Assembly: GCF_003938605.1 (NCBI RefSeq)
Contig: NZ_RHWX01000004.1
Location: forward strand, 62,001 to 126,000
Direction of reading: 5' to 3'
From: Brevundimonas sp. 357
GTDB taxonomy: Bacteria > Pseudomonadota > Alphaproteobacteria > Caulobacterales > Caulobacteraceae
Length of the DNA stretch: 64,000 nt
The notes beneath the pieces are model-generated. The model ran no database searches. It was not told where the DNA came from and saw only the letters and a program-made list of their open reading frames with translations. Every line of letters starts with the position of its first letter. The stretch's first letter is position 1. Of the stretch, positions 15,306-27,486 are shown piece after piece. A program made the position numbers and the translations under genes.

Positions 15306-15827
15306 TCAGAGGCGTTGCAGCGGCAACCCCATGCCTGCCGCGATCAGCCAGGTTTCGTCCGCCAGGGCAGCGATTCGCTGGTTCAGACGACCAGCCTCGT
15401 CTCTGAAACGGCGGCCCAGAGGGTTGTCCGGCACCAGAGACCACCCAACCTCGTTGCTGACGACCCATAGGCGCGCTGGGCAGGCGGTTAGGGCGGCGGC
15501 CAGTTCATCGACGGCGGGGGCCAGGTCGCGCTCGGCCAGCATCTGATTGCTGAGCCACAAGGTCAGGCAGTCGACCACCGCCACATCCTCGGCCGACAGG
15601 GCGCGCACGGCCTCGGCCAGATCCAACGGCGCTTCGATTTGGCGCCAGCCCTGGCCGCGTTCGGCCTGATGGCGGGCGATGCGGTCGCGCATCTCGTCGT
15701 CGAAAGCCTCGGCGGTGGCGATGAAGACGGGCGAGAGGCCCGCCGCCTCGGCGGCCTGTTCAGCCTGCCTTTGGGCGTAGCCGCTCTTGCCGGAACGGGC
15801 GCCGCCGAGAACCAGGCTTAGGGTCAT
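15306..15827 (-). CDS. cobU: Adenosylcobinamide kinase / adenosylcobinamide-phosphate guanylyltransferase
   Basis: A bifunctional enzyme of nucleotide-loop assembly: it phosphorylates adenosylcobinamide and then attaches GMP to give adenosylcobinamide-GDP. The 173-residue length is standard (cobP in Pseudomonas nomenclature). The Walker A GGARSGKS lies at residues 8-15, and VAVVDCLTLWLSNQM and VSNEVGWSLVPDNPLGR are characteristic. It is transcribed away from the btuB operon, so the plus-strand riboswitch between them cannot control it. Confidence 0.95.
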   Translation of the reverse strand: MTLSLVLGGARSGKSGYAQRQAEQAAEAAGLSPVFIATAEAFDDEMRDRIARHQAERGQGWRQIEAPLDLAEAVRALSAEDVAVVDCLTLWLSNQMLAERDLAPAVDELAAALTACPARLWVVSNEVGWSLVPDNPLGRRFRDEAGRLNQRIAALADETWLIAAGMGLPLQRL

Positions 15828-15884
15828 GCGTCGTCTCTCCGGTTGACCTGAACCGCACGCGGTCCTACTGCCACGGTCGCGTCA

Positions 15885-16062
15885 GGTTCCCCGAAAGGGG
15901 ATTGAAAGGGAACGGAGTGTGAAACTCCGGCTGTTCCCGCAACTGTAAGCGGCTAGCCCGCGCGTCATACGCCACTGGCGGTCCGGAAGGCCACGGCCTG
16001 AACGACTGCTGGGAAGGCGACGCGCACCGGCCTTGATCCGCGAGCCAGGAGACCTGCCTGTC
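15885..16062 (+). promoter_or_regulatory. Cobalamin (adenosylcobalamin) riboswitch
   Basis: The plus strand carries the conserved core in order: a GGTTCC hairpin, AAAGGGAACGGAGTGTGAAA, the CCCGCAACTGTAAGCGG segment (about 15935-15952), GCCACTGG (15971-15978), and the B12-box-like GAGCCAGGAGACCTGCC (16042-16058). It lies in the 380-nt gap between divergent cobU and btuB and reads toward btuB. By family knowledge, ligand binding would lower expression of the uptake/assembly operon. The 145 nt between its end and the btuB start is GC-rich and may hold the expression platform, but I could not settle its fold by eye. Confidence 0.93.
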
Positions 16063-16207
16063 GCCGTCGTTCTCCGTGCGGTCGGGATGTGCCGGGCGGT
16101 CGAGGCAACTCGTGTGACGACAGTCGTAAACCAGCCGCGTCAGCGGCCGCCTTCGCTCATCCGGGCGACGGGCGGTCCGGCGCGGCGTCGTCATATGGAG
16201 ACCCGGA

Positions 16208-18166
16208 ATGAACCGGACCGCATTCGCTACCCTGGCCGCCGCCAGCCTTATGGCCGCCGCTCCCGCTTTCGCCGCTGAAACCGTCGATCAACAGGCCGCC
16301 GCTCCTGACGTGGCGGGCCGCGCCGGCGCCACCGCCGTCGAGGACGTGGTCGTCACCGCCAACCGCTCGGCCCAGCCGATCGAGCGCGTCGGCGCCTCGG
16401 TCACTGTCCTGACCCAGGCCGCCATCGAGGCGCGCCAGACCCCGGCCGTGGTCGAGCTTCTGGCCCAGACGCCGGGCGTCAGCTTCACCCGCAACGGCGG
16501 CGTCGGCACCTCGACGGGCGTCAACATCCGCGGCGCTGAGAGCCAGCACACCGTCGTCCTGATCGACGGGGTCAAGCTGAACGACCCGTCCTCGACCCAG
16601 GGCGGCTTCAACTTCGGCAACCTGCTGGTCGGCGACACGGCGCGCATCGAGGTGCTGCGCGGCGCCCAGTCGACCCTGTGGGGCAGCCAGGCCATCGGCG
16701 GCGTGGTCAACATCGTCACCGCCGAACCGACCGAAGCCCTGCAAGGCGGCCTCGACGCCGAGGCCGGCGCGCGCGGCACGACCTATTTCCGCGGCGGGAT
16801 CGGCGGGGCCAGTGAGCGCCTGAGCTGGCGTCTGGCCGCCAGCCGCTATGACACCGACGGCTTCTCGGCCTTCGCCAAGGGGACCGAGGACGACGGCTAC
16901 ACCAACACCGGCCTGTCCGGCCGCCTGAACGTCAAGGTGACGGACGCGGTGTCCCTGGACCTGCGCTCGGTCTGGTCCAGCGGCCGCAACGACTTCGACG
17001 CCTTCAACGGCGACAGCCGCGAATACGGCAAGACCCAGGAGCTGGTCGCCTACGCCGGACTGAACTTCGACCTGCTGGACGGCCGGTTCCGCAACCGCAT
17101 CGGCTACGCCCATACCGACACGGACCGCCGCAACTTCAACCCGGACAACAAGGTCCAGACCCTGACCTTTGACGCCGAGGGCCAGAACCGCCGCTGGGAG
17201 TATCAGGGCGCCTTCGCCGTCACCGAGGCGCTGAACGCGACTTTCGGCCTGGAGCACGAGAAGTCGGAGATGAAGACCCGCTCGCCCGGCGACTGGAACC
17301 CGAACCCGGCCTTCGGCCGCGGCGAAGCCGAACTGAACAGCGCCTATGGCCAGGTGCAGTGGACGGTGCTGGACGGCCTGACCCTGACCGGCGGCCTGCG
17401 CTATGACGACCACGCGCAATATGGCGACAACCTGCTGGGCCAGGTCGCGGCGGCCTGGGCCCTGAACGAGGGCGATACGGTGGTGCGCGCCAGCTGGGGC
17501 CAGGGCTTCCGCGCGCCGGGCCTGTATGAGCTGTACAGCGAGTACGGCAATCTGAACCTGCAACCGGAAGAGTTCGACAGCTGGGAGATCGGCGTCGAGC
17601 AGCGCCTGTTCGACCGCGCCGTCGTCTCGGCGACCTACTTCAACCGCCAGGCGGACAATGAGATCCGCTACAACGGCTGCTCGACGCCCTCGACGGACCC
17701 GCTGTGCACCGTCAACGGCGCAGGCCGCTGGGGCTATTACCGCAACGTCCAGAAGACCGAGGCGCAAGGCGTCGAACTGGTCGGCCGCGTGGATGTGACG
17801 GAGCGCCTGAACGTCAGCGCCAACTACACCTGGACCGACGCCAAGAGCGCCTCGGGCGCCGCGGACGGCAAGCGTCTGACGCGCCGTCCCGAGCATATGG
17901 CGAATTTCGCCGCCGACTACGCCTTCGCCTTCGGCCTGAAGACGGGCGTGGCGGTGCGTTACGTCGGCGAGACGTTCAACAACGACACGAACACGGCGAA
18001 GGTCGACGCCTACACCCTGGTCGATCTGCGCGCCTCCTATCCGATCAACGACGCCCTCGAAATCTACGGCCGGATCGAGAACGCCTTCGACGAGGACTAT
18101 CAGACGGTCCTGAACTACGGCGCGCCGGGCCAGGGCGTGTTCGGCGGCGTTCGCGTCCGGTTCTGA
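16208..18166 (+). CDS. btuB: TonB-dependent vitamin B12 receptor
   Basis: An outer-membrane beta-barrel receptor importing cobalamin or other corrinoids with TonB energy. The 652 residues include a signal peptide (about 1-22), a TonB-box-like VEDVVVTA near residue 45, a plug domain with VNIRGAESQHTVVLIDGVKLND and IEVLRGAQSTLWGSQAIGGVVNIVT, and a 22-strand-sized barrel. It ends in an aromatic residue (GVRVRF). GGAG at 16197-16200 gives a good ribosome binding site. Placement directly behind the riboswitch and ahead of btuFCD homologues supports cobalamin as ligand. cobC follows after 4 nt. Confidence 0.93.
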   Translation: MNRTAFATLAAASLMAAAPAFAAETVDQQAAAPDVAGRAGATAVEDVVVTANRSAQPIERVGASVTVLTQAAIEARQTPAVVELLAQTPGVSFTRNGGVGTSTGVNIRGAESQHTVVLIDGVKLNDPSSTQGGFNFGNLLVGDTARIEVLRGAQSTLWGSQAIGGVVNIVTAEPTEALQGGLDAEAGARGTTYFRGGIGGASERLSWRLAASRYDTDGFSAFAKGTEDDGYTNTGLSGRLNVKVTDAVSLDLRSVWSSGRNDFDAFNGDSREYGKTQELVAYAGLNFDLLDGRFRNRIGYAHTDTDRRNFNPDNKVQTLTFDAEGQNRRWEYQGAFAVTEALNATFGLEHEKSEMKTRSPGDWNPNPAFGRGEAELNSAYGQVQWTVLDGLTLTGGLRYDDHAQYGDNLLGQVAAAWALNEGDTVVRASWGQGFRAPGLYELYSEYGNLNLQPEEFDSWEIGVEQRLFDRAVVSATYFNRQADNEIRYNGCSTPSTDPLCTVNGAGRWGYYRNVQKTEAQGVELVGRVDVTERLNVSANYTWTDAKSASGAADGKRLTRRPEHMANFAADYAFAFGLKTGVAVRYVGETFNNDTNTAKVDAYTLVDLRASYPINDALEIYGRIENAFDEDYQTVLNYGAPGQGVFGGVRVRF

Positions 18167-18170
18167 TGCG

Positions 18171-19181
18171 ATGAAGGACGCCGCGTTCCTGACGACGGCG
18201 ACCCGGCACGGCGGCGGCCTGATAACGGCCGCCGCCGCCTATCCCGACGCGCCGCAGCCCTGGCTGGACCTGTCCACGGGGATCAATCCCGAGCCGTGGC
18301 GGGGAGCGCGCGCGTCGGAGGAGGCGCTGAACCGCCTGCCCGATCCCGCCGCCCTGGCGGCGTTGGAGGCGGTCGCTGCGGCCGCCTTCGGCGCTTCGCC
18401 TGAGCGGACGGCGGCGGTCGCGGGAGCCGAAGCGGCGATCCGTCTTCTGCCCCTGCTGCTGGGCGTGCGGGCGGTCGAGGTCGTCGGCCCGACCTACGGC
18501 GCCCATGCCGAGGCCTGGCGGGCGGCGGGCGTGGCGACGCGCCTGATCGCGCCGGATCAGGCGGCGGCCTCGCAGGCGGGCGTGCTGGTCGTCGTCAATC
18601 CGAACAATCCCGACGGGCGCCTGACCCGGCGGGCCGATCTGATCGCCATGGCGCGGGCGCGGTCCAAGGCGGGGCGCTGGCTGGTGGCGGACGAGTCCTT
18701 CATCGAATGCGCGCCCGGCGACAGCGTGTCGGACCTGGCCGAGCCGGGGCTGATCGTCCTGCGCTCGTTCGGTAAGTTCTACGGTCTGGCCGGGGTGCGG
18801 CTGGGCTTCATGCTGGCGGCGCCCGAGCTGATCCGGCGATTGCGCGCGCTTCAGGGCGACTGGCCGGTCAGCGCCGACGCCCTGACGCTGGGGCTGGGCG
18901 CCTACGCTGACGAGGCCTGGCGGCGCCGGACCGAGGCGGCCCTGGCCGAGCGGGCCGATCGGCTGGACGACTTGCTGGCGCGGGCGGGGTTCCAGATCAT
19001 CGGCGGGACCAGCCTGTTCCGCATGACGCGCACGCCCCACGCCGCGCGCTGGTTCCAGCACCTGTGCCGCGCGGGCATCCTGACCCGGCCGTTCGACCAT
19101 ACGCCCGACGCCCTGCGCTTCGGCGTTCCGGTCGAGCGCGACTTCCCTCGACTGCGACGCGCGCTGGAGGCCTTCGGATGA
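18171..19181 (+). CDS. cobC: Threonine-phosphate decarboxylase-like aminotransferase-fold enzyme
   Basis: A PLP-dependent enzyme that makes (R)-1-amino-2-propanol O-phosphate for the corrin side chain (cobC in aerobic nomenclature, CobD in Salmonella). The 336 residues show the N-terminal LDLSTGINP, VVNPNNPDGR, and the PLP-lysine motif LRSFGKFYGLAGVRLGF at about 199-215. Expected partners follow: cbiB uses its product. Overlaps btuF by four bases (ATGA). Symbols conflict between nomenclatures, so the call is by reaction. Confidence 0.9.
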   Translation: MKDAAFLTTATRHGGGLITAAAAYPDAPQPWLDLSTGINPEPWRGARASEEALNRLPDPAALAALEAVAAAAFGASPERTAAVAGAEAAIRLLPLLLGVRAVEVVGPTYGAHAEAWRAAGVATRLIAPDQAAASQAGVLVVVNPNNPDGRLTRRADLIAMARARSKAGRWLVADESFIECAPGDSVSDLAEPGLIVLRSFGKFYGLAGVRLGFMLAAPELIRRLRALQGDWPVSADALTLGLGAYADEAWRRRTEAALAERADRLDDLLARAGFQIIGGTSLFRMTRTPHAARWFQHLCRAGILTRPFDHTPDALRFGVPVERDFPRLRRALEAFG

Positions 19182-20029
19182 GGGCGAGCCGGCGACAGGC
19201 GCTGGCGGGCGCGGGAGCCATGCTGGTCGTCGGGCCGGCTGCGGCCGACGCTGCGCCGCGCCGCGTGGTGTCGCTGAACGCCTGCCTTGACGCCATCCTG
19301 GTCCACGTCGCCGACCGGGGGCAGATCGCCTCCCTCAGCCACTATGCGCGCGAGCCGGTCGGCTCGACCATTTCCGAGGTGGCCGAGACCCTGCCCTTCA
19401 CCTGGGAGACGGCGGAAGAGGTCATCGCCCTGCGCCCCGATCTGGTGCTGACCAGTCGCCACAGCGCCCTGGCGACCCGCAATGCCCTGGGCCGTCTGAA
19501 CATCCAGACCGAACTGTTCGCCGTGCCCGACAGCGTGGCCGCAAGCCTGGACCAGGTGCGCGAGGTCGCCCGCCTGGTCGGCCGCCCGGCGCGGGGCCAG
19601 GCCCTGATCGCGCGCATCGAGGCGGCCATCGCCGCCGCCGCCCCGCCGCCGGGATCGGCGCCGCTGACGGCCCTGATCTACCAGCCCAACGGTTTCGCCG
19701 CCGGGCGCGGCACCTTGATGGACGAGATGATGACCCGCGCCGGTTTCGAGAATGTCGCCGGCCGCTATGGCCTGGGCAAATGGGGCAATGTCCCGGTTGA
19801 GCGCCTGCTGGCCGACCCGCCCCAGGTGTTGCTCAGCGGCGTGCCGGTGCGCGGCTCGCGCACCTGGGCCGACCGGGTGATGCGTCATCCGGCGCTGAAG
19901 TCCCTGTCCGGGCGGATGGTGCAGGCGCAACTGGAAGAGAAGCTGCTCTATTGCGGCGGGCCGGTGCTGATCCAGACCGCCGCCGCCCTGGCTCGCGCGC
20001 GCCGCACGGCGCTGGAGGCCCTGACATGA
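19178..20029 (+). CDS. btuF: Corrinoid ABC transporter substrate-binding protein
   Basis: A periplasmic class III binding protein feeding BtuCD. The ATG at 19178 is in ATGA overlap with cobC. It gives 283 residues beginning with a twin-arginine-like or Sec signal (MRASRRQALAGAGAMLVVG). The mature part starts RRVVSLNACLDAILV, as in other BtuF/FhuD-type proteins. It continues with LRPDLVLTS and a long central helix, and contains the second-lobe YQPNGFAAGRG and LLSGVPVRGSR. Cobalamin specificity is inferred from the operon, because siderophore-binding relatives look similar. Coupled to btuC by ATGA. Confidence 0.88.
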   Translation: MRASRRQALAGAGAMLVVGPAAADAAPRRVVSLNACLDAILVHVADRGQIASLSHYAREPVGSTISEVAETLPFTWETAEEVIALRPDLVLTSRHSALATRNALGRLNIQTELFAVPDSVAASLDQVREVARLVGRPARGQALIARIEAAIAAAAPPPGSAPLTALIYQPNGFAAGRGTLMDEMMTRAGFENVAGRYGLGKWGNVPVERLLADPPQVLLSGVPVRGSRTWADRVMRHPALKSLSGRMVQAQLEEKLLYCGGPVLIQTAAALARARRTALEALT

Positions 20030-21009
20030 CCCTGCCGCGTCCCCTGGTGATGATCGGGCTTCTGCTCCTGATCGTCGCCCTGTCCGTCGCCAGCATGAGC
20101 GCGGGCCGCGTCTGGATTCCGTGGAGCGACTGGGCGAGCCAGCGCGGCGATCCCGCCTGGGCCATCCTGTTCGAGCTGCGCCTGCCGCGCACCGTGCTGG
20201 CCCTGATGGTCGGGGCGGTGCTGGGCCTGACCGGGGCGGCGTTGCAGGGCTATACGCGCAACCCGCTGGCCGATCCGGCGATCCTGGGCGTCTCGACCAT
20301 GGCGGCGCTGGGGGCGGTGCTGACCTTCTATCTGGGCGGGGCGGCCAGCGCGCCGTGGGTGCTGCCGGTCGTGGCCATGGTCGGGGCGGGGATCGGCGTG
20401 CTGTTGCTGCTGGCCCTGGCGGGGGCGACCAGCAGCGTCGTCACCTTCATTCTGGCCGGGGTGGTGATTCAGACCATGGCCGGGGCGGGCGTGGCCCTGG
20501 CGCTGAACCTGGCGCCCAACCCCTGGGCGGTGAACGAGATCGTCAACTGGCTGATGGGGTCGCTGGCCGACCGCAGCGTGGTCGAGCTGAGGCTGGCGGC
20601 GCCGGGCATGATCCTGGGCTGCCTGCTGCTGTTGACCCAAGGGCGGACGCTGGACGCCCTGACCCTGGGCGAGGCGGGGGCGCGGTCGTTGGGGGTGCGG
20701 CTGGACGTCGGGCGGATGATGCTGGCGCTGGGGGCGGCCCTGGCGGTCGGTTCGGCGGTGGCGGTGACGGGGTCGATCGGCTTCGTCGGCCTGATCGTGC
20801 CGCATCTGCTGCGGCCCCTGATCGGCGCGCGGCCCAGCGGCCTGCTGCTGCCCTCGGCTCTGGGCGGCGCCGCTCTGACGCTGGCGGCGGACATTCTGGT
20901 GCGGCTGACGCCCGCTTCGACCGAGATCAAGCTGGGCGTGGCCATGGCGGCCCTGGGCGGCCCCTTCTTCCTGGCCCTGCTGATCAACATGAGAAGGAAG
21001 CTGGCGTGA
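20026..21009 (+). CDS. btuC: FecCD/BtuC-family ABC transporter permease
   Basis: The inner-membrane permease of the corrinoid importer. The 327 residues have about ten helices and the family motifs LRLPRTVLALMVGAVLGLTGAALQGYTRNPLADP near the N-terminus, and GSIGFVGLIVPHLLRPLIG toward the C-terminus (coupling region). The start at 20026 is in ATGA overlap with btuF, and the stop overlaps the GTG start of the ATPase gene. Confidence 0.93.
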   Translation: MTLPRPLVMIGLLLLIVALSVASMSAGRVWIPWSDWASQRGDPAWAILFELRLPRTVLALMVGAVLGLTGAALQGYTRNPLADPAILGVSTMAALGAVLTFYLGGAASAPWVLPVVAMVGAGIGVLLLLALAGATSSVVTFILAGVVIQTMAGAGVALALNLAPNPWAVNEIVNWLMGSLADRSVVELRLAAPGMILGCLLLLTQGRTLDALTLGEAGARSLGVRLDVGRMMLALGAALAVGSAVAVTGSIGFVGLIVPHLLRPLIGARPSGLLLPSALGGAALTLAADILVRLTPASTEIKLGVAMAALGGPFFLALLINMRRKLA

Positions 21010-21782
21010 GTATCCTGAGCGCGGAGAACCTGTCTGTCCGGCTGGGCGACAAGGCGGTGCTGAACGGCGTCGACGCCGCCTTCGCGCCGGGGCTGGTGAC
21101 GGCGATTGTCGGACCGAACGGGGCGGGCAAGTCGACGCTGCTGGACTGTCTGGCGGCCCTGCGGACGCCCGACGCGGGCCGCGTGATGTTGGACGGCCGA
21201 GCATTGCGCGATCTGCCTGCGCGCGCGCGTTCACGGCGCATCGCCTATCTGCCCCAGAACGCCGAGATCGCCTGGGCGGTCGAGGGGCGGACCTTCGTCG
21301 GCCTGGGCCGCACCCCCTACGTCGGCGCCTGGGGCCTGAGGGCGGACGACCGCGCCGCCGTGGCCCGCTCCATGGCCGTGGCGGGGGTGGAGGGGTTCGC
21401 CGACCGCGTCGTCTCGACCCTGTCGGGCGGCGAGCGGGCGCGCGTCCTGATCGCCCGCGCCCTGGCCGGAGAACCGCAATGGCTGCTGGCGGACGAGCCG
21501 CTGGCGGGCCTCGATCCGGGTCATGTGCTGGACGCCTGCGACCTGTTCCGGCGGCTGGCGGATGAAGAGGGGCGGGGCGTCGTCCTGACCCTGCACGACC
21601 TCGACGCGGCCTTGCGCGTGGCGGATCGGGTGATCGTTCTGGCTGAGGGACGCGTGCTGGCCGACGCCGCCCCGGCCGAGGCCCTGTCGCCCGAGGTGCT
21701 CAAGACGGCGTACGGCGTCGAGGCGCGCACCCTGGACGGCGCGCGCGGCCCGGTGCTGGAGATGGTCGGCCGTGCCCGTTAG
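21006..21782 (+). CDS. btuD: ABC transporter ATP-binding protein of the corrinoid importer
   Basis: A 258-residue ATPase energising BtuC. The GTG start at 21006 overlaps the btuC stop (GTGA). Motifs in order: Walker A GPNGAGKST, Q-loop AYLPQNAEI, ABC signature LSGGERARV, Walker B WLLADEPLAGLD, and switch His in LTLHDLDAAL. The same reading frame stays open far upstream inside btuC, but that stretch is Gly/Arg-rich shadow sequence. It overlaps the next gene by 11 nt. Confidence 0.93.
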   Translation: MSILSAENLSVRLGDKAVLNGVDAAFAPGLVTAIVGPNGAGKSTLLDCLAALRTPDAGRVMLDGRALRDLPARARSRRIAYLPQNAEIAWAVEGRTFVGLGRTPYVGAWGLRADDRAAVARSMAVAGVEGFADRVVSTLSGGERARVLIARALAGEPQWLLADEPLAGLDPGHVLDACDLFRRLADEEGRGVVLTLHDLDAALRVADRVIVLAEGRVLADAAPAEALSPEVLKTAYGVEARTLDGARGPVLEMVGRAR

Positions 21783-22719
21783 CAGCCTGCCCATGCCCTG
21801 GATCGTCGCGGGGGCTTTGCTGGTCGAGGGCGTCGTCGGCTGGCCCCGGCGCCTGTCGCATCCGGTGGCGTGGCTCGGCGCCCTGATCGCGGTGCTGGAG
21901 CGGCGCTGGAACAAGGCGGAACGGCCCGAAGGCGCACGCCGCATCCTGGGCGTCGTCACGGTCCTGATCCTGATCACGGTCGCAGGCGGGGCGGGCTGGG
22001 GCGTACAGGCGATGGCCGCCGCCTCGCCGTTTTGGCCGGGGGTGGCGTTGCTGTTAGTCTGCGGCGCGACGGGACTGGCGGCGCGCAGCCTGTTCGACCA
22101 CGTCCGCGCCGTGGCTCGGCCGCTGAAGGCGGGCGACCTGCCCGCCGCGCGTCTGGCGGTCGGCATGATCGTCGGCCGCGACGTCGAGGCGATGGACGAG
22201 AACGAGGTCGCGACGGCCGCTCTGGAAAGCCTGGCCGAGAGCTTCTGCGACGGCGTGGTCGCGCCGGTCTTCTGGTTCGTGATCGGCGGCCTGCCGGGCC
22301 TGTTTGCCTATAAGGCCATCAACACCGCCGACAGCATGATCGGCCACAGGGAGCTGCGCTGGCGGGCCTTCGGCTGGGCCGCGGCGCGGATCGACGACGT
22401 GATGAACTGGATCCCGGCGCGCATCGCGGGCGCCCTGATCGCTCTGGGCGGCGCAGGCGGTTGGCGCATCATGTGGCGCGATGCAGGCAGGCACGCCTCG
22501 CCCAACGCCGGGTGGCCCGAGGCGGCCATGGCGGGCGCGCTGCGGGTTCGACTGGGCGGGCCGGTCCGCTATGACGGCGTCATGACCGACCGACCTGTCT
22601 TCGGCGACTGGGCGCCGCCGTCCGCTCATGATCTGAAACGCGGGCTGAAGGTTTACGGCCTCGCCTGCGCCCTGTTGCTGATGCTGCTGATCGGCGGGGG
22701 CTTCGCATGGCCGCGCTGA
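21772..22719 (+). CDS. cbiB: Adenosylcobinamide-phosphate synthase (CbiB/CobD)
   Basis: A membrane enzyme joining aminopropanol (phosphate) to adenosylcobyric acid to form (phospho)cobinamide. The 315 residues carry about five helices and the family motifs [45 protein letters not shown] and [11 protein letters not shown]. The start is given as GTG 21772, overlapping btuD by 11 nt. An ATG at 21793 would trim seven residues without loss of conserved sequence. cobQ overlaps its end by 13 nt. Confidence 0.92.
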
Positions 22720-24179
22720 TGATCCAGGGCTGCGGCTCGGACGTGGGCAAGTCGGTGCTGGTCGCGGGCCTGTGCCGCGTCTTCGCCAATCGCGGCCTGA
22801 AGGTGCGGCCGTTCAAACCGCAGAACATGTCCAACAACGCCGCCGTCACAGCTCCCGATCAAGCTGGCCGCACCGGCGAGATCGGCCGCGCCCAGGCGCT
22901 TCAGGCGCTGGCCTGCCGCACCCCGGCGACCGTCGACATGAATCCCGTCCTGCTAAAGCCGCAGAGCGACACCGGCGCCCAGCTGGTCGTGCGCGGTCAG
23001 GTCGAGGGCGTGTGGCAGGCGGCGGGTTACCAGGACCGCAAGGCCGCTCTGCTGGACGTGGTGCTGGACAGCTTCCGTCGCCTTCAGGCTGAAGCCGATC
23101 TGGTGATTGTCGAGGGCGCGGGCAGTCCGGCCGAGACCAATCTGCGCGCCGGGGATATCGCCAACATGGGTTTCGCCCGCGCGGCGGACGTGCCGGTGGT
23201 GCTGGTCGGCGACATCGACCGGGGCCATGTGATCGCCTCCCTGGTCGGCGCCCATGCGGTGCTGGACGACGAAGACCGGGCGATGATCCGGGGCTTCATC
23301 ATCAACAAGTTTCGCGGCGATCCGGCCCTGTTTGATCAGGGCCGGGCCGAGATCACGCGGCGCACGGGCTGGGCGGACCTCGGCATGGCGCCGTGGCTGG
23401 CGGATGCGCGGGCTCTTCCGGCCGAGGACGCCGTGGTGCTGGAACGGTCGGCCGACGCGCGTGGCGGAAAGGTGCGGATCGCCGTGCCCATGCTGTCGCG
23501 CATCGCCAACTTCGACGACTTCGATCCGCTGCGGCATGAGCCGGGCGTGGACTTCGGCTTCGTGCCGCCGGGGCAGGCCCTGCCGGGCGATGCGGACTTG
23601 ATCATCCTGCCGGGGACCAAGGCGACGCTGGCCGATCTGGCCTTCCTGCGCGCGCAGGGCTGGGACGTGGACATCGCCGCCCATGTGCGACGCGGCGGGC
23701 GTGTGCTGGGCGTGTGCGGCGGCTATCAGATGCTGGGCCGCACGATCAGCGATCCCGACGGCGTCGAGGGCGTGGCGGGTTCGGCGCCGGGGCTGGGCCT
23801 GCTGGACGTCGAGACGGTGTTGGCGGGGGCCAAGACCCTGCGCCGGGTCGAGGGACGGCTGACGCCCTCGGGCGCGGCGATCGAGGGCTATGAGATCCAC
23901 ATCGGCCGCACCGGCGGCCCGGACACGGCGCGGCCGGTCGCCATGATCGACGGGGAGGCGCACGGCGCGCGCTCGGGCGACGGGCGGATCGCGGGCCTCT
24001 ATGTCCACGGCCTGTTCGACCGGGCCGAGGCGCGGGCGGCCCTGCTAGCGGAGGTCGGGGCCGTGTCTGACCGCGTGGATCAGGGCGCGTGGGTGGATCA
24101 GGCGCTGGACCGCATCGCCGCCGTGCTGGAAACCCATTTCGACATTCCGGCTCTGGCCCGGATTGCAGGACTGAAATGA
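22707..24179 (+). CDS. cobQ: Cobyric acid synthase
   Basis: Amidates four carboxyls of adenosylcobyrinic a,c-diamide using glutamine and ATP. At 490 residues it has the normal two-domain layout: an N-terminal dethiobiotin-synthetase-like ATPase with [11 protein letters not shown] and [12 protein letters not shown], and a C-terminal glutaminase-like domain with [13 protein letters not shown] (nucleophile Cys) and a late YVHGLF. Its presence means the cell can work from incompletely amidated corrinoids, not only cobinamide. Coupled to cobT by ATGA. Confidence 0.95.
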
Positions 24180-25219
24180 CCGAACTGACCGAGCTTTTCT
24201 CCGTGCCGCCGCTGGATCAGGGGCTGCGCGCGTCGCTGCGGGAGGCGCTGGACGGCAAGGCCAAGCCGGTCGGCGCCCTGGGTCGGATCGAGGATCTGGC
24301 CCTGACACTGGGTCTGATCCAGCAGACTCTGCGCCCGACCGTGACCCAGCCGGTGCTGCTGGTCTTCGCTGGGGATCACGGGCTGACGCGCTCGGGCGTG
24401 GCGGCCTATCCGGCGGGGGTGACTGTGGCCATGGTCGATACGTTGCTGATGGGCCGGGCCAGCGCCAACGCCTTCGCCAAGGTCGTCGGCGCGCAGGTAC
24501 AGGTGATCGACGCGGGCGTCGCCGCCGATCTGTCAGACCGGGCCGGCTTGATCCACGCCAAGGTCGCGCCGGGAACGAAGGACGCCTCGGTCGAGCCCGC
24601 CATGACGCCCGATCAGGCGCAGGCCGCCCTGCTGGAAGGCGCCGCCATGGCGCGTGCCGCCATCGACGAGGGCGTCGATGTGATCGCGCTGGGCGAAATG
24701 GGCATTGGCAACAGCGCTTCGGCGGCCCTGCTGATGCACCGACTGGCGCCCGCGCCTCTGGCCGACTGCGTGGGGCAGGGGGCGGGCCACTCGCCCGAGG
24801 GCATGGCGCGCAAACAGGCTGTGCTGGCTAAGGCCGCCGCTCGGTCGGACGCGACGGCGCCGCTGGAGGTGCTGACCCAGTTCGGCGGCTTCGAGATCGC
24901 CATGATGGCCGGGGCCCTGCTGGGCGCGGCGAAGGCGGGCGCGCCGGTCGTCGTCGACGGCTTCATCGGTTCGGCGGCGGCCCTGCTGGCGATCCGGCTG
25001 GCGCCGGATGCGCGCGACTACTGCATCTTCGCCCACGCCTCGGCCGAGGCGGGGCATCGTCGGATGCTGGAGGCCGTCGAGGCGCAACCCCTGCTGGGCC
25101 TCGACATGCGTTTGGGCGAGGGGACGGGCGCGCTGCTGGCCGTGCCGCTGCTGAAGGCGGCCTGCGCCCTGCTATCCGATGTGGCCGAGCTGAAGGACAT
25201 ATTGGAGGCCGCGCGATGA
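24176..25219 (+). CDS. cobT: Nicotinate-nucleotide:dimethylbenzimidazole phosphoribosyltransferase
   Basis: Activates the lower-ligand base to alpha-ribazole 5'-phosphate, using nicotinate mononucleotide. The ATG at 24176 overlaps cobQ (ATGA) and gives 347 residues, the family norm. Motifs include [47 protein letters not shown] and the C-terminal [17 protein letters not shown] with the expected catalytic Glu. It is not the cobaltochelatase subunit that shares the name CobT. The product should feed the following cobS gene. Confidence 0.95.
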
Positions 25220-25983
25220 TCGGGCGCGAGGCGCGGCTCTTCGTCTGCGCCCTGCAGTTCCTGACGCGCCTGCCGACGCCGCCGCTGCGCGATTTCCAGC
25301 CCGAGTGGATCCAGCAGAGCGCGCGCTGGTTCCCGCTGGTCGGGCAGGTGGTCGGCGTGATCGCGGCGGCGATTCTGTATGGCGCGGCCCAGGTGTGGAG
25401 CCCGTGGATCGCGGCCCTGCTGGCCGTGGCGGCGGGCGTGGCCCTGACTGGCGGCTTCCACGAGGACGGGCTGGCCGACGCCGCCGACGGTCTGGGCGGC
25501 GGCCAGACGCGGGCGCGGCGGTTGGAGATCATGAAGGACAGCCGTCTCGGATCATACGGCGCGCTGACGCTGGGGCTGACGCTGGCGTTGCGGGTGGCGG
25601 CGCTGGCGATGCTGGTCGCCGTCTCGCCGTGGATGGCGGCGGCGGCGCTGGTCGCATCACACGGACTGGGCCGGGCGGCGGCGGTCGGGGCGATGGCGCT
25701 GATGTCCTATGGCGGCGACCCCGGCATGGCCAAGGAGGGCAAGCCGGACCGCGCCTCGATGACGGGGTTTACGGTCGCCGTTCTGGTCGCCCTGTGGCCG
25801 TTGGCCCTGTTGCCGGTTGCGGCGGGCGTAGTCGGCGTGGCGGCGGGGCTGGTCGTCGGGGCGGTTCCGGCCTGGCAGGCGCAACGGCTGATCGGCGGGC
25901 GTACCGGCGACGTGCTGGGCGCGGTGGAGCAGATGTTCGAGGTCGGCTTCCTGCTGGCCGTCGCCGGGCTGCTGGCGACATGA
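25216..25983 (+). CDS. cobS: Adenosylcobinamide-GDP ribazoletransferase (CobS/CobV)
   Basis: An integral membrane enzyme that joins adenosylcobinamide-GDP to alpha-ribazole or its phosphate, the last ring-closing step. The 255 residues are very hydrophobic, with about six helices. The metal/diphosphate motif GGFHEDGLADAADGLGGG lies at about 77-94 and LGSYGAL follows. It overlaps cobT at its start and the phosphatase gene at its end (both ATGA). The name is ambiguous with the cobaltochelatase CobS at 29194; this one is cobV in aerobic nomenclature. Confidence 0.93.
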   Translation: MIGREARLFVCALQFLTRLPTPPLRDFQPEWIQQSARWFPLVGQVVGVIAAAILYGAAQVWSPWIAALLAVAAGVALTGGFHEDGLADAADGLGGGQTRARRLEIMKDSRLGSYGALTLGLTLALRVAALAMLVAVSPWMAAAALVASHGLGRAAAVGAMALMSYGGDPGMAKEGKPDRASMTGFTVAVLVALWPLALLPVAAGVVGVAAGLVVGAVPAWQAQRLIGGRTGDVLGAVEQMFEVGFLLAVAGLLAT

Positions 25984-26498
25984 GGCTGATCGTCTCGCCC
26001 CTGCCGCAGGTTGAGCGGCTGCTGGCGGCGCACCAGCCGTCGCATCTGGTGACGCTGGCCTCGCCGGGGGCTGAAGCGGCCTTTGAGGCCGAACATCGGC
26101 TGGACCTGCGTTTCAACGACATCGCCGCCCCGCGCGGGGGTCTGGTCGCGCCGTCGCTCGAACACGTCGAGGCCCTTTTGACGTTCTCGAAGGGATGGAG
26201 CGGCGCGCGGTCTCTGCTGATCCATTGCTGGGCGGGGGTCAGCCGCTCGACGGCGGCGGCCTATGTCGTCGCCTGCGCCCGCACGGCGCCGGGGCGCGAG
26301 TCTGAGTGGGCTGCGCGTCTGCGAGACGCCGCCCCGACCGCCACGCCCAATGCCCTGATCGTCGCCCATGCAGACCGCTTGCTGGATCGCGACGGGGCTA
26401 TGGTCCGCGCCGTCGAGGCCATCGGCCGGGGCGCCGAGACCGACTGGGGCGCGCCCTTTGAACTGGACCTGACCGCCGAAGGAGACGGCCGCCGATGA
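25980..26498 (+). CDS. Tyrosine-phosphatase-fold protein inside the cobalamin operon
   Basis: A 172-residue protein with the Cys-dependent phosphatase P-loop HCWAGVSRS (Cys83, Arg89), the C-x5-R signature of PTP/dual-specificity phosphatases. A preceding LRFNDIAAP segment supplies a candidate general-acid Asp47. It has no transmembrane helix. It resembles the predicted protein tyrosine phosphatases annotated in many alphaproteobacteria. The gene is locked between cobS and cobO by ATGA overlaps on both sides, so it is co-translated with nucleotide-loop assembly enzymes. Function is not known. Protein dephosphorylation is the default guess. Dephosphorylation of alpha-ribazole phosphate or cobalamin 5'-phosphate is an inference from context. 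Confidence 0.85.
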   Translation: MRLIVSPLPQVERLLAAHQPSHLVTLASPGAEAAFEAEHRLDLRFNDIAAPRGGLVAPSLEHVEALLTFSKGWSGARSLLIHCWAGVSRSTAAAYVVACARTAPGRESEWAARLRDAAPTATPNALIVAHADRLLDRDGAMVRAVEAIGRGAETDWGAPFELDLTAEGDGRR

Positions 26499-27112
26499 AC
26501 GACCCGCACGACGACGAACTGAACGCCCGCCACGCCGAGAAGATGAAGCGCATCCAGGCCGCTCGCGCCCGGATGATGCAGTCCAAGACGGTCGAGCGCG
26601 GCCTGGTCATCGTCCACACCGGAACCGGCAAGGGTAAGTCGACGGCGGCCATGGGCATGGTCTGCCGCATGATCGGCCACGGGATGAAGACCTCCATCAT
26701 CCAGTTCATCAAGGGGGCGATGGAGACGGGCGAGCAGACCCTGTTCGACAGCTTCCCCGACCTGGTCGAGATGCGGCCGATGGGCGAGGGCTTCACCTGG
26801 GACACCCAGGACCGCGCCGCCGACATCGCCAACGTCCGCCGCGCTTGGGAGGCCGCCAAGGCCCGCATCATGGACCCGGAATGGAAGATGGTCGTCTGCG
26901 ACGAGCTGAACATCGCCCTGCGCTACGACTACCTGCCGGTCGAGGAGGTGCTGGAGGTTCTGGCCGCCCGCCCGGCTGGCGCCCACATCGTCATCACCGG
27001 TCGCAACGCCCCGGAGGCCCTGATCGCGGCGGCCGATCTCGTCACCGACATGCAGATGGTCAAGCACCCCTTCCGCAGCGGGGTGAAGGCCCAGGCCGGG
27101 GTGGAGTTCTGA
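26495..27112 (+). CDS. cobO: Cob(I)yrinic acid a,c-diamide adenosyltransferase
   Basis: Adds the 5'-deoxyadenosyl ligand to the cobalt of reduced corrinoids. The 205 residues are of the CobA/CobO/BtuR type, with the unusual P-loop HTGTGKGKSTAA at about 41-52. Motifs IQFIKGAMETGE, GFTWDTQD, VVCDELNIALRYDYL and ITGRNAPEALI follow. Overlaps the phosphatase gene (ATGA) and ends in TGATGA with the DUF1636 gene. The enzyme needs cob(I), and no CobR-type reductase is seen in the cluster. Confidence 0.95.
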   Translation: MNDPHDDELNARHAEKMKRIQAARARMMQSKTVERGLVIVHTGTGKGKSTAAMGMVCRMIGHGMKTSIIQFIKGAMETGEQTLFDSFPDLVEMRPMGEGFTWDTQDRAADIANVRRAWEAAKARIMDPEWKMVVCDELNIALRYDYLPVEEVLEVLAARPAGAHIVITGRNAPEALIAAADLVTDMQMVKHPFRSGVKAQAGVEF

Positions 27113-27486
27113 TGACGGAGGCGACGGCGCGATTGGTCGTCTGCACCACCTGCCGTCTGTCGTCGGACGAGCCCGTGGACGCGGACGGCGTCTGCGGCGG
27201 ACAACGGCTGCTTCAGGCCGTGGCGGCGGCGGCGCGGGTCGCGCCCGAACTGCGGGTCGAGGAGCAGGCCTGCCTGTGGGCCTGCCGCAGCCATTGCACC
27301 GTCTATCTGGCCCAGGGTGGAAAGCCCGGCTACCTGGCCGGAACCTTCACGCCGACCGCCAACGCCGCCGAGGCCATCGTCGATTTCGCGCGCCGCTACG
27401 CCGCCAGCCCGGACGGCGCTGTGCCCTATCGCGACTGGCCCGAGGGGATGAAGGGCCACTTCATCGCCCGCCTGCCTACGGTCTAG
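27112..27486 (+). CDS. DUF1636 cysteine-rich predicted metal-binding protein
   Basis: A 124-residue soluble protein beginning right at the cobO stop (1-nt overlap). It has six cysteines: Cys11 and Cys14 (CTTC), Cys28, and a C-x3-C-x3-C cluster at Cys54, Cys58 and Cys62. This fits metal or Fe-S binding in a thioredoxin-like-ferredoxin-sized fold. DUF1636 genes recur next to cobalamin genes in proteobacteria, but I know of no assigned function. A role in cobalt handling or in electron delivery for corrinoid reduction is speculative. It is the last gene of the plus-strand run. Confidence 0.85.
   Translation: MTEATARLVVCTTCRLSSDEPVDADGVCGGQRLLQAVAAAARVAPELRVEEQACLWACRSHCTVYLAQGGKPGYLAGTFTPTANAAEAIVDFARRYAASPDGAVPYRDWPEGMKGHFIARLPTV

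Follow-up and report, generated by a model that had tools for sequence, protein, structure and literature searches.

The window, that is the whole stretch of 64,000 nucleotides of Brevundimonas sp. 357 DNA that was analysed, contains a cobalamin gene cluster in which a gene for a putative Cys-based phosphatase (hereafter PTP) lies between cobS and cobO (Table 1). Judging from sequence and genomic context, we consider it probable (about 0.6) that PTP is a small-molecule phosphatase replacing CobC in the late assembly of the nucleotide loop, with adenosylcobalamin-5'-phosphate (AdoCbl-5'-phosphate) and/or alpha-ribazole-5'-phosphate as its substrate. In Salmonella, the alpha-ribazole phosphate produced by CobT is linked by CobS to AdoCbi-GDP, which gives AdoCbl-5'-phosphate, and CobC then removes the phosphate. 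PTP would remove the 5'-phosphate from the AdoCbl-5'-phosphate made by CobS and/or from the alpha-ribazole-5'-phosphate made by CobT. In the proposed mechanism, Cys83 would attack the phosphorus, the phosphate would be held by Arg89 and the P-loop, Asp47 is the candidate general acid, and water would free the phospho-cysteine. The chemistry of CobC runs through phospho-His and that of Cys-based phosphatases through phospho-Cys.

Table 1. The PTP gene and the cobalamin-related features around it (positions in the window)
Feature	Position	Strand	Evidence or remark
cobU/cobP	15306..15827	-	Pfam PF02283 (CobU), 189.4 bits (cut-off 27)
Cobalamin riboswitch	15867..16075	+	RF00174, 115 bits, E 1.7e-28
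TonB-dependent receptor ORF, riboswitch ahead of it	16208..18166	+	
Threonine-phosphate decarboxylase	18171..19181	+	TIGR01140, 314.6 bits (cut-off 290.55)
Corrinoid ABC transporter, three ORFs	19166..21782	+	Start of first gene chosen by hand
cbiB/cobD	21772..22719	+	TIGR00380, 225.8 bits (cut-off 165.9)
cobQ (cobyric acid synthase)	22707..24179	+	TIGR00313, 415.5 bits (cut-off 309.9)
cobT (NaMN:DMB phosphoribosyltransferase)	24176..25219	+	TIGR03160, 387.1 bits (cut-off 319.3)
cobS (adenosylcobinamide-GDP ribazoletransferase)	25216..25983	+	TIGR00317, 122.2 bits (cut-off 110)
PTP (dual-specificity-phosphatase-fold protein, proposed CobC replacement)	25980..26498	+	172 aa, open ORF
cobO (corrinoid adenosyltransferase)	26495..27112	+	TIGR00708, 224 bits (cut-off 167.75)
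DUF1636 protein behind cobO	27112..27486	+	PF07845, 108.3 bits (cut-off 31.6)

The genes belong to a corrinoid salvage and nucleotide-loop cluster. After the riboswitch, a tight run on the + strand comprises btuB, the threonine-phosphate decarboxylase gene, btuF, btuC, btuD, cbiB, cobQ, cobT, cobS, the PTP gene, cobO and the DUF1636 gene, and the spacing suggests that the run is co-transcribed as a single operon. The receptor ORF is presumably btuB-like, and we take the three transporter ORFs to be btuF-, btuC- and btuD-like. The threonine-phosphate decarboxylase is the CobD of Salmonella and the CobC of the aerobic nomenclature. The cobalamin riboswitch ahead of btuB is strong and probably controls the whole gene run. 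A DUF1636 gene was also found 3' of cobO in three other loci (L118, L121 and L122).

The open reading frame and its coordinates bear out the original prediction that a protein with the P-loop motif HCWAGVSRS (CX5R) is encoded between cobS and cobO with ATGA overlaps on both sides. The ATGA at 25980-25983 joins the cobS stop to the PTP start, and the one at 26495-26498 joins the PTP stop to the cobO start. Moreover, the gene looks selected because dN/dS is well below 1 against three close relatives (0.054/0.314, 0.047/0.201 and 0.091/0.317). The closest named match to the locus comes from Brevundimonas diminuta 3F5N, in which the PTP is 91%, the cob and btu genes are 91-98% and the DUF1636 protein is 89% identical.

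PTP is over no Pfam or NCBIfam cut-off. The Pfam model PF00782 (DSPc) gave 14.4 bits, which is below its cut-off of 33.5, and every one of the weak Pfam matches was to a Cys-based phosphatase. A DSPc match at E<=0.01 was obtained for 39 of 60 aligned relatives, and the residues D47, H82, C83, G86, S88, R89 and S90 are invariant among the 60 aligned members. HC-x5-R is present in 79 of the 80 named relatives, which are the best 80 of 544 confirmed. The exception is a Bartonella apihabitans relative (L171:9992-10504) that reads NCFMGISRS, without the His before the catalytic Cys. With an HC-X5-R(S/T) P-loop, an upstream Asp and a predicted dual-specificity-phosphatase fold, PTP shows the features of the PTP/DSP superfamily. 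The AlphaFold2 model, based on the 60-row alignment, reached a pLDDT of 95.4 and a pTM of 0.92. Its nearest solved structures are human DUSP1 and DUSP7 (Z 13.9, 129-131 residues, 2.5-2.6 A, 11-13% identity), and the top Foldseek match was DUSP22 (4.6e-5). The 60-row profile was needed for sequence searches of the Protein Data Bank, in which it matched DUSP16 at 5.1e-5 and viral PTP-2 at 1.3e-6; the single PTP query returned mostly antibody chance matches (best E 0.027). Thus, PTP has its fold and catalytic motif in common with dual-specificity protein phosphatases (PF00782; DUSP1, DUSP7, DUSP22), but it differs from them by its low identity (8-22% across structurally aligned chains) and its score below the Pfam cut-off. 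Given the predicted fold and the invariant catalytic residues, PTP is likely to be an active Cys-type phosphatase, although the fold does not tell the substrate. No more than three positions (3, 45 and 55), all of them weak, were found to separate the cob-linked rows from the others, and a specificity signature is therefore not claimed.

The absence of CobC and CobZ from the cob cluster of the window, which had been claimed before, could be confirmed and extended to the whole genome (3.29 Mb, 61 contigs, completeness 100), where neither was found over cut-off. Searching this genome with the CobC model TIGR03162 yielded two matches, the best at E 1.2e-11 and none over the cut-off, and the CobZ model TIGR03161 gave none at E<=0.001 with the PTP gene included. 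The NCBIfam scan of PTP likewise gave no TIGR03161 match. There are three PF00300 matches in the genome: a phosphoglycerate mutase (302.1 bits for TIGR01258, cut-off 81.7; 69.6 bits for TIGR03162, cut-off 162.9), a SixA-like protein (57.5 bits, under the 74.5 cut-off) and a protein without an NCBIfam match at E<=1e-5. All seven examined Brevundimonas-type carriers of a cob-linked PTP, one of which is a bin labelled Bordetella, were also without a TIGR03162 match at E<=1e-15. Among 25 examined genomes with cob-linked members, such a match was present in 17 and missing in eight; the best per genome ranged from 2e-22 to 1.5e-41, and 0/17 were over the cut-off. Since sub-cut-off TIGR03162 matches also occur in members of the family without cobS, they are not specific for B12. 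However, the matched proteins may be a working phosphatase in those carriers.

The position behind cobS was compared in an order sample of 200 genomes, 49 of which have a cobS match. A CobC-type histidine phosphatase is located next to cobS in 27 of the 49 genomes, namely in 22/22 of the neighbouring family (f2), 4/4 of f156 and 1/9 of f154. PTP takes this position in 13 of the 49, namely in 13/14 of the window's own family (f1), and no genome of the 49 has both phosphatases beside cobS. Nine genomes, of which eight belong to a single f154 genus and one to f1, have neither; in two of these loci (L276 and L280) cobS lies at a contig end and the slot is partly unseen. In the five of the nine loci that were examined at full length (L103-L106 and L114), cobT and cobS are divergent, and a phosphatase of either kind was not found within 14-15 kb. 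The f2 gene order cobT-cobS-CobC-cobO (L109) mirrors the order cobT-cobS-PTP-cobO of the window. CobC (TIGR03162; adenosylcobalamin/alpha-ribazole phosphatase) occupies the same slot overlapping cobS in the neighbouring family, and PTP would catalyse the same reaction. However, the folds are unrelated, and PTP matched neither of the histidine-phosphatase models TIGR03162 and PF00300 at E<=1.

Both kinds of phosphatase gene overlap cobS. The histidine phosphatase gene does so by 10 bases in 16 and by 13 bases in one of 17 f2 genomes; in f156 there is a 10-base overlap in two genomes and a 49-base gap in one (two loci). This set comprised 22 loci of 21 genomes, with the f154 case outside it. PTP overlaps cobS in 40/40 of the cob-linked loci measured (36 distinct proteins, identities down to 45%, start codons picked by script), by four bases in 38 and by 10 bases in two. 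The overlap with cobS in both families is consistent with a complex between the phosphatase and CobS, and for this reason AdoCbl-5'-phosphate would be the more likely of the two substrates.

Of 249 genomes sampled from the window's own family, cobS was matched in 55 and PTP in 91. Like CobC, PTP is encoded with nucleotide-loop genes, as it was found directly behind cobS in 42 of the 55 cobS genomes (read from coordinates). Of the other 13, G483 has a weak cobS match (37 bits) outside any cob cluster, G294 is of the type with divergent cobT and cobS, and 11 have the same cluster as the window. The latter keep the order btuC-btuD-cbiB-cobQ-cobT-cobS, with PTP and histidine phosphatase both absent within about 5 kb of cobS. 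An unlinked relative is present elsewhere in six of them, no relative was found in four, and one has two fragments on another contig. These 11 clusters are the strongest evidence that the PTP gene is dispensable or replaceable, and the original description of the gene as locked into the operon was too strong. A different exception is the genus g255. Its two cobS genomes of the family sample (G484 and G494, the latter being L179) both carry PTP behind cobS, followed at a distance of about 1 kb by a CobC-like histidine phosphatase. The order is cobS, PTP, a nitroreductase-like gene (presumably BluB) and the CobC-like gene, whose product in G484 scores 118.3 bits, under the 162.9 cut-off. Moreover, three g253 genomes (G482, G493 and G502) possess a PTP relative and no cobS match, and G502 keeps cobQ beside it; two of the three relatives fall in the cob clade described below, and G493 is not in the tree. 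We read this pattern either as a gene that outlasted the loss of the pathway or as a return to another role. The locus L154 is similar, with cobQ-PTP, no cobT/cobS in the locus and no cobS found in the genome.

Across the class, 112 of 240 sampled genomes have a cobS match, and 102 were examined after 10 with a partial or weak cobS had been left out. Within the flanks covered (up to about 1.5-2.5 kb), a histidine phosphatase was present near cobS in 66 of the 102 genomes (29 by coordinates and 37 by a profile built here), mostly adjacent, PTP in two and neither in 34. A phosphatase beside cobS is thus a usual arrangement. The two PTP cases are the genome of the window and G014, which belongs to another order and has the whole cluster. 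Among the 34, cobS is near the end of its contig in three loci (L199, L226 and L243), and in G194 a histidine phosphatase is encoded on the opposite strand at a distance of 2.4 kb. A relative of PTP at any place was detected in 14/34 genomes with neither phosphatase near cobS, 11/66 with a histidine phosphatase, 16/128 without cobS, 2/2 where it is itself the neighbour of cobS and 0/10 of the cobS genomes left unexamined. The Fisher p values for the presence of relatives are 0.014 and 0.0004, which is only a hint that the phosphatase is provided by unlinked relatives where cobS has no histidine phosphatase nearby, because the sampled genomes are related.

In a tree of 123 rows, the 38 cob-linked rows (36 behind cobS and two beside cobQ only) form one clade (100/95) together with the unlinked L127. 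L127 and L143 are sisters, and both come from Caulobacteraceae bins that match the g253 genomes G482 and G502. The cob-linked rows need three changes in a larger tree including six very long rows (L028-L033) and two in the tree without them; L012, L025, L027 and L053 (<140 residues) as well as identical proteins were left out of both larger trees. The first tree (58 rows) also had one clade, of 14 rows (84/72). As the tree is without an outgroup root, a single gain is the simplest reading, and the clade probably goes back to one recruitment, with an alphaproteobacterial phosphatase encoded at a non-cob locus as its source. The genomic half of the earlier proposal of a non-orthologous CobC replacement has held up, with CobC and CobZ absent over cut-off, the CobC-type enzyme in the f2 slot, one clade and the overlap with cobS in all 40 loci measured. 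Catalysis, substrate and the need for PTP are what we infer, and the proposed replacement is a well-supported candidate with real exceptions.

Among the best 80 of the 544 confirmed relatives, 26 are located behind cobS and two behind cobQ only, a proportion that is meaningless because the list is ranked by similarity to the cob clade. The wider family is mostly not cob-linked. Homologues without linkage to cob genes had been named in advance as evidence against the proposal; they do prevail in the wider family, whereas the clade holding the PTP of the window is cob-linked. The unlinked alphaproteobacterial relatives (e.g. of Ochrobactrum, Methylobacterium and Pseudovibrio) share about 35-54% identity and the same P-loop with PTP and differ in lying outside cob clusters. 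In 45 loci, representing 45 of the 52 named non-cob relatives, an HD hydrolase is encoded just upstream in 29 cases, and the one example scanned is YfbR-like by Pfam. The protein encoded just downstream in 20 of the 45 loci is presumably NadQ-like; the one example scanned matched nothing in Pfam or NCBIfam. Using the consensus for the box of the NAD regulator NadQ given in the part of PMC5343134 that describes it, boxes were predicted in 15 of 286 loci (L014, L016, L049, L056, L060, L061, L117, L127, L139, L158, L165, L174, L177, L180 and L195), each of them near a relative that lies outside cob clusters. L127 has a box and yet is a member of the cob group in the tree, and in one g253 genome a clade member lies about 4 kb from a predicted box. 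The boxes and neighbours place part of the source family near NAD-regulated genes and suggest a link of this family to NAD metabolism. Recruitment from the source family is plausible, given that CobT takes NaMN as its donor and releases another mononucleotide, alpha-ribazole phosphate. A tentative idea, which we would not call likely, is a single recruitment event in which a widespread DSP-fold phosphatase of alphaproteobacteria for pyridine or other mononucleotides, encoded in the vicinity of NAD-regulated genes, became coupled to cobS as a dedicated phosphatase for a B12 intermediate. Such a recruitment would bring to the CobC step a fold that was not found assigned to it in the literature searched, from a source family that is still identifiable.

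The same neighbourhoods allow a rather unlikely reading in which PTP acts on another phosphorylated metabolite (e.g. nicotinate mononucleotide or a different mononucleotide) and keeps the NaMN pool that feeds CobT in balance or clears side products, and a less specific phosphatase carries out the CobC step. Besides the HD hydrolase genes, the NadQ boxes and the g253 member close to such a box, the 11 family clusters that manage without PTP speak for it. It has also been reported in a passage of PMC13389410 that E. coli CobC itself dephosphorylates FMN; such phosphatases can thus be broad. However, PTP overlaps cobS and not cobT in all 40 loci, and it sits in the slot of CobC. The overlap with cobS and the predicted fold of a dual-specificity protein phosphatase would also suit a protein phosphatase with CobS or a different late enzyme, and not a pathway intermediate, as its target of regulation. 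We regard this role as quite improbable, since PTP sits where the neighbouring family has a metabolic phosphatase and no protein-kinase gene was noticed among the ORFs of the cob cluster in an unsystematic look.

A replacement of CobC by an unrelated protein, as we propose it for PTP, has a precedent. CblX, CblY and CblZ are names for predicted CobC replacements. A passage of PMC8123684 uses the designation 'CobC/CblZ'. A title cited in PMC9561151 and passages of PMC3223730 present the archaeal CobZ as a non-orthologous substitute for CobC. CobZ of Methanosarcina (TIGR03161) is such a replacement and belongs to a different family from the PTP of the window. A tyrosine or dual-specificity phosphatase joined to the CobC step was found neither among the open-licence PMC papers searched nor in passages of PMC8123684, PMC7242693, PMC13389410, PMC9503650, PMC6461909, PMC9561151, PMC8092220 and PMC3223730. 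If PTP acts as proposed, it would fill in the final step that B12 salvage lacks in Brevundimonas and many Caulobacter, and a Cys-based phosphatase would join CobC and CobZ, which are unrelated enzymes known to catalyse it. It would also provide a marker for annotation pipelines where cobC is scored absent, and an example of a metabolic step taken over by a phosphatase whose source family can still be recognised.

Tight coupling of PTP to the end of cobS is seen in Brevundimonas and Caulobacter as well as in a few other bacteria. That it is a mere passenger, a housekeeping phosphatase unrelated to the pathway that became trapped in the operon and has no role in B12 synthesis, is the least probable explanation: the 11 clusters of 55 without PTP beside cobS and the relatives kept in the three g253 genomes without cobS would fit it, but the overlap with cobS in 40 of 40 loci, the low dN/dS and the occurrence with the cluster in another order (G014) and in Acidocella bins argue against it. 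Six loci (L120, L125, L134, L136, L154 and L191) come from bins labelled Bordetella, Rhodospirillaceae or Marinimicrobia that contain Caulobacteraceae-like cob clusters and are possibly mislabelled or mixed.
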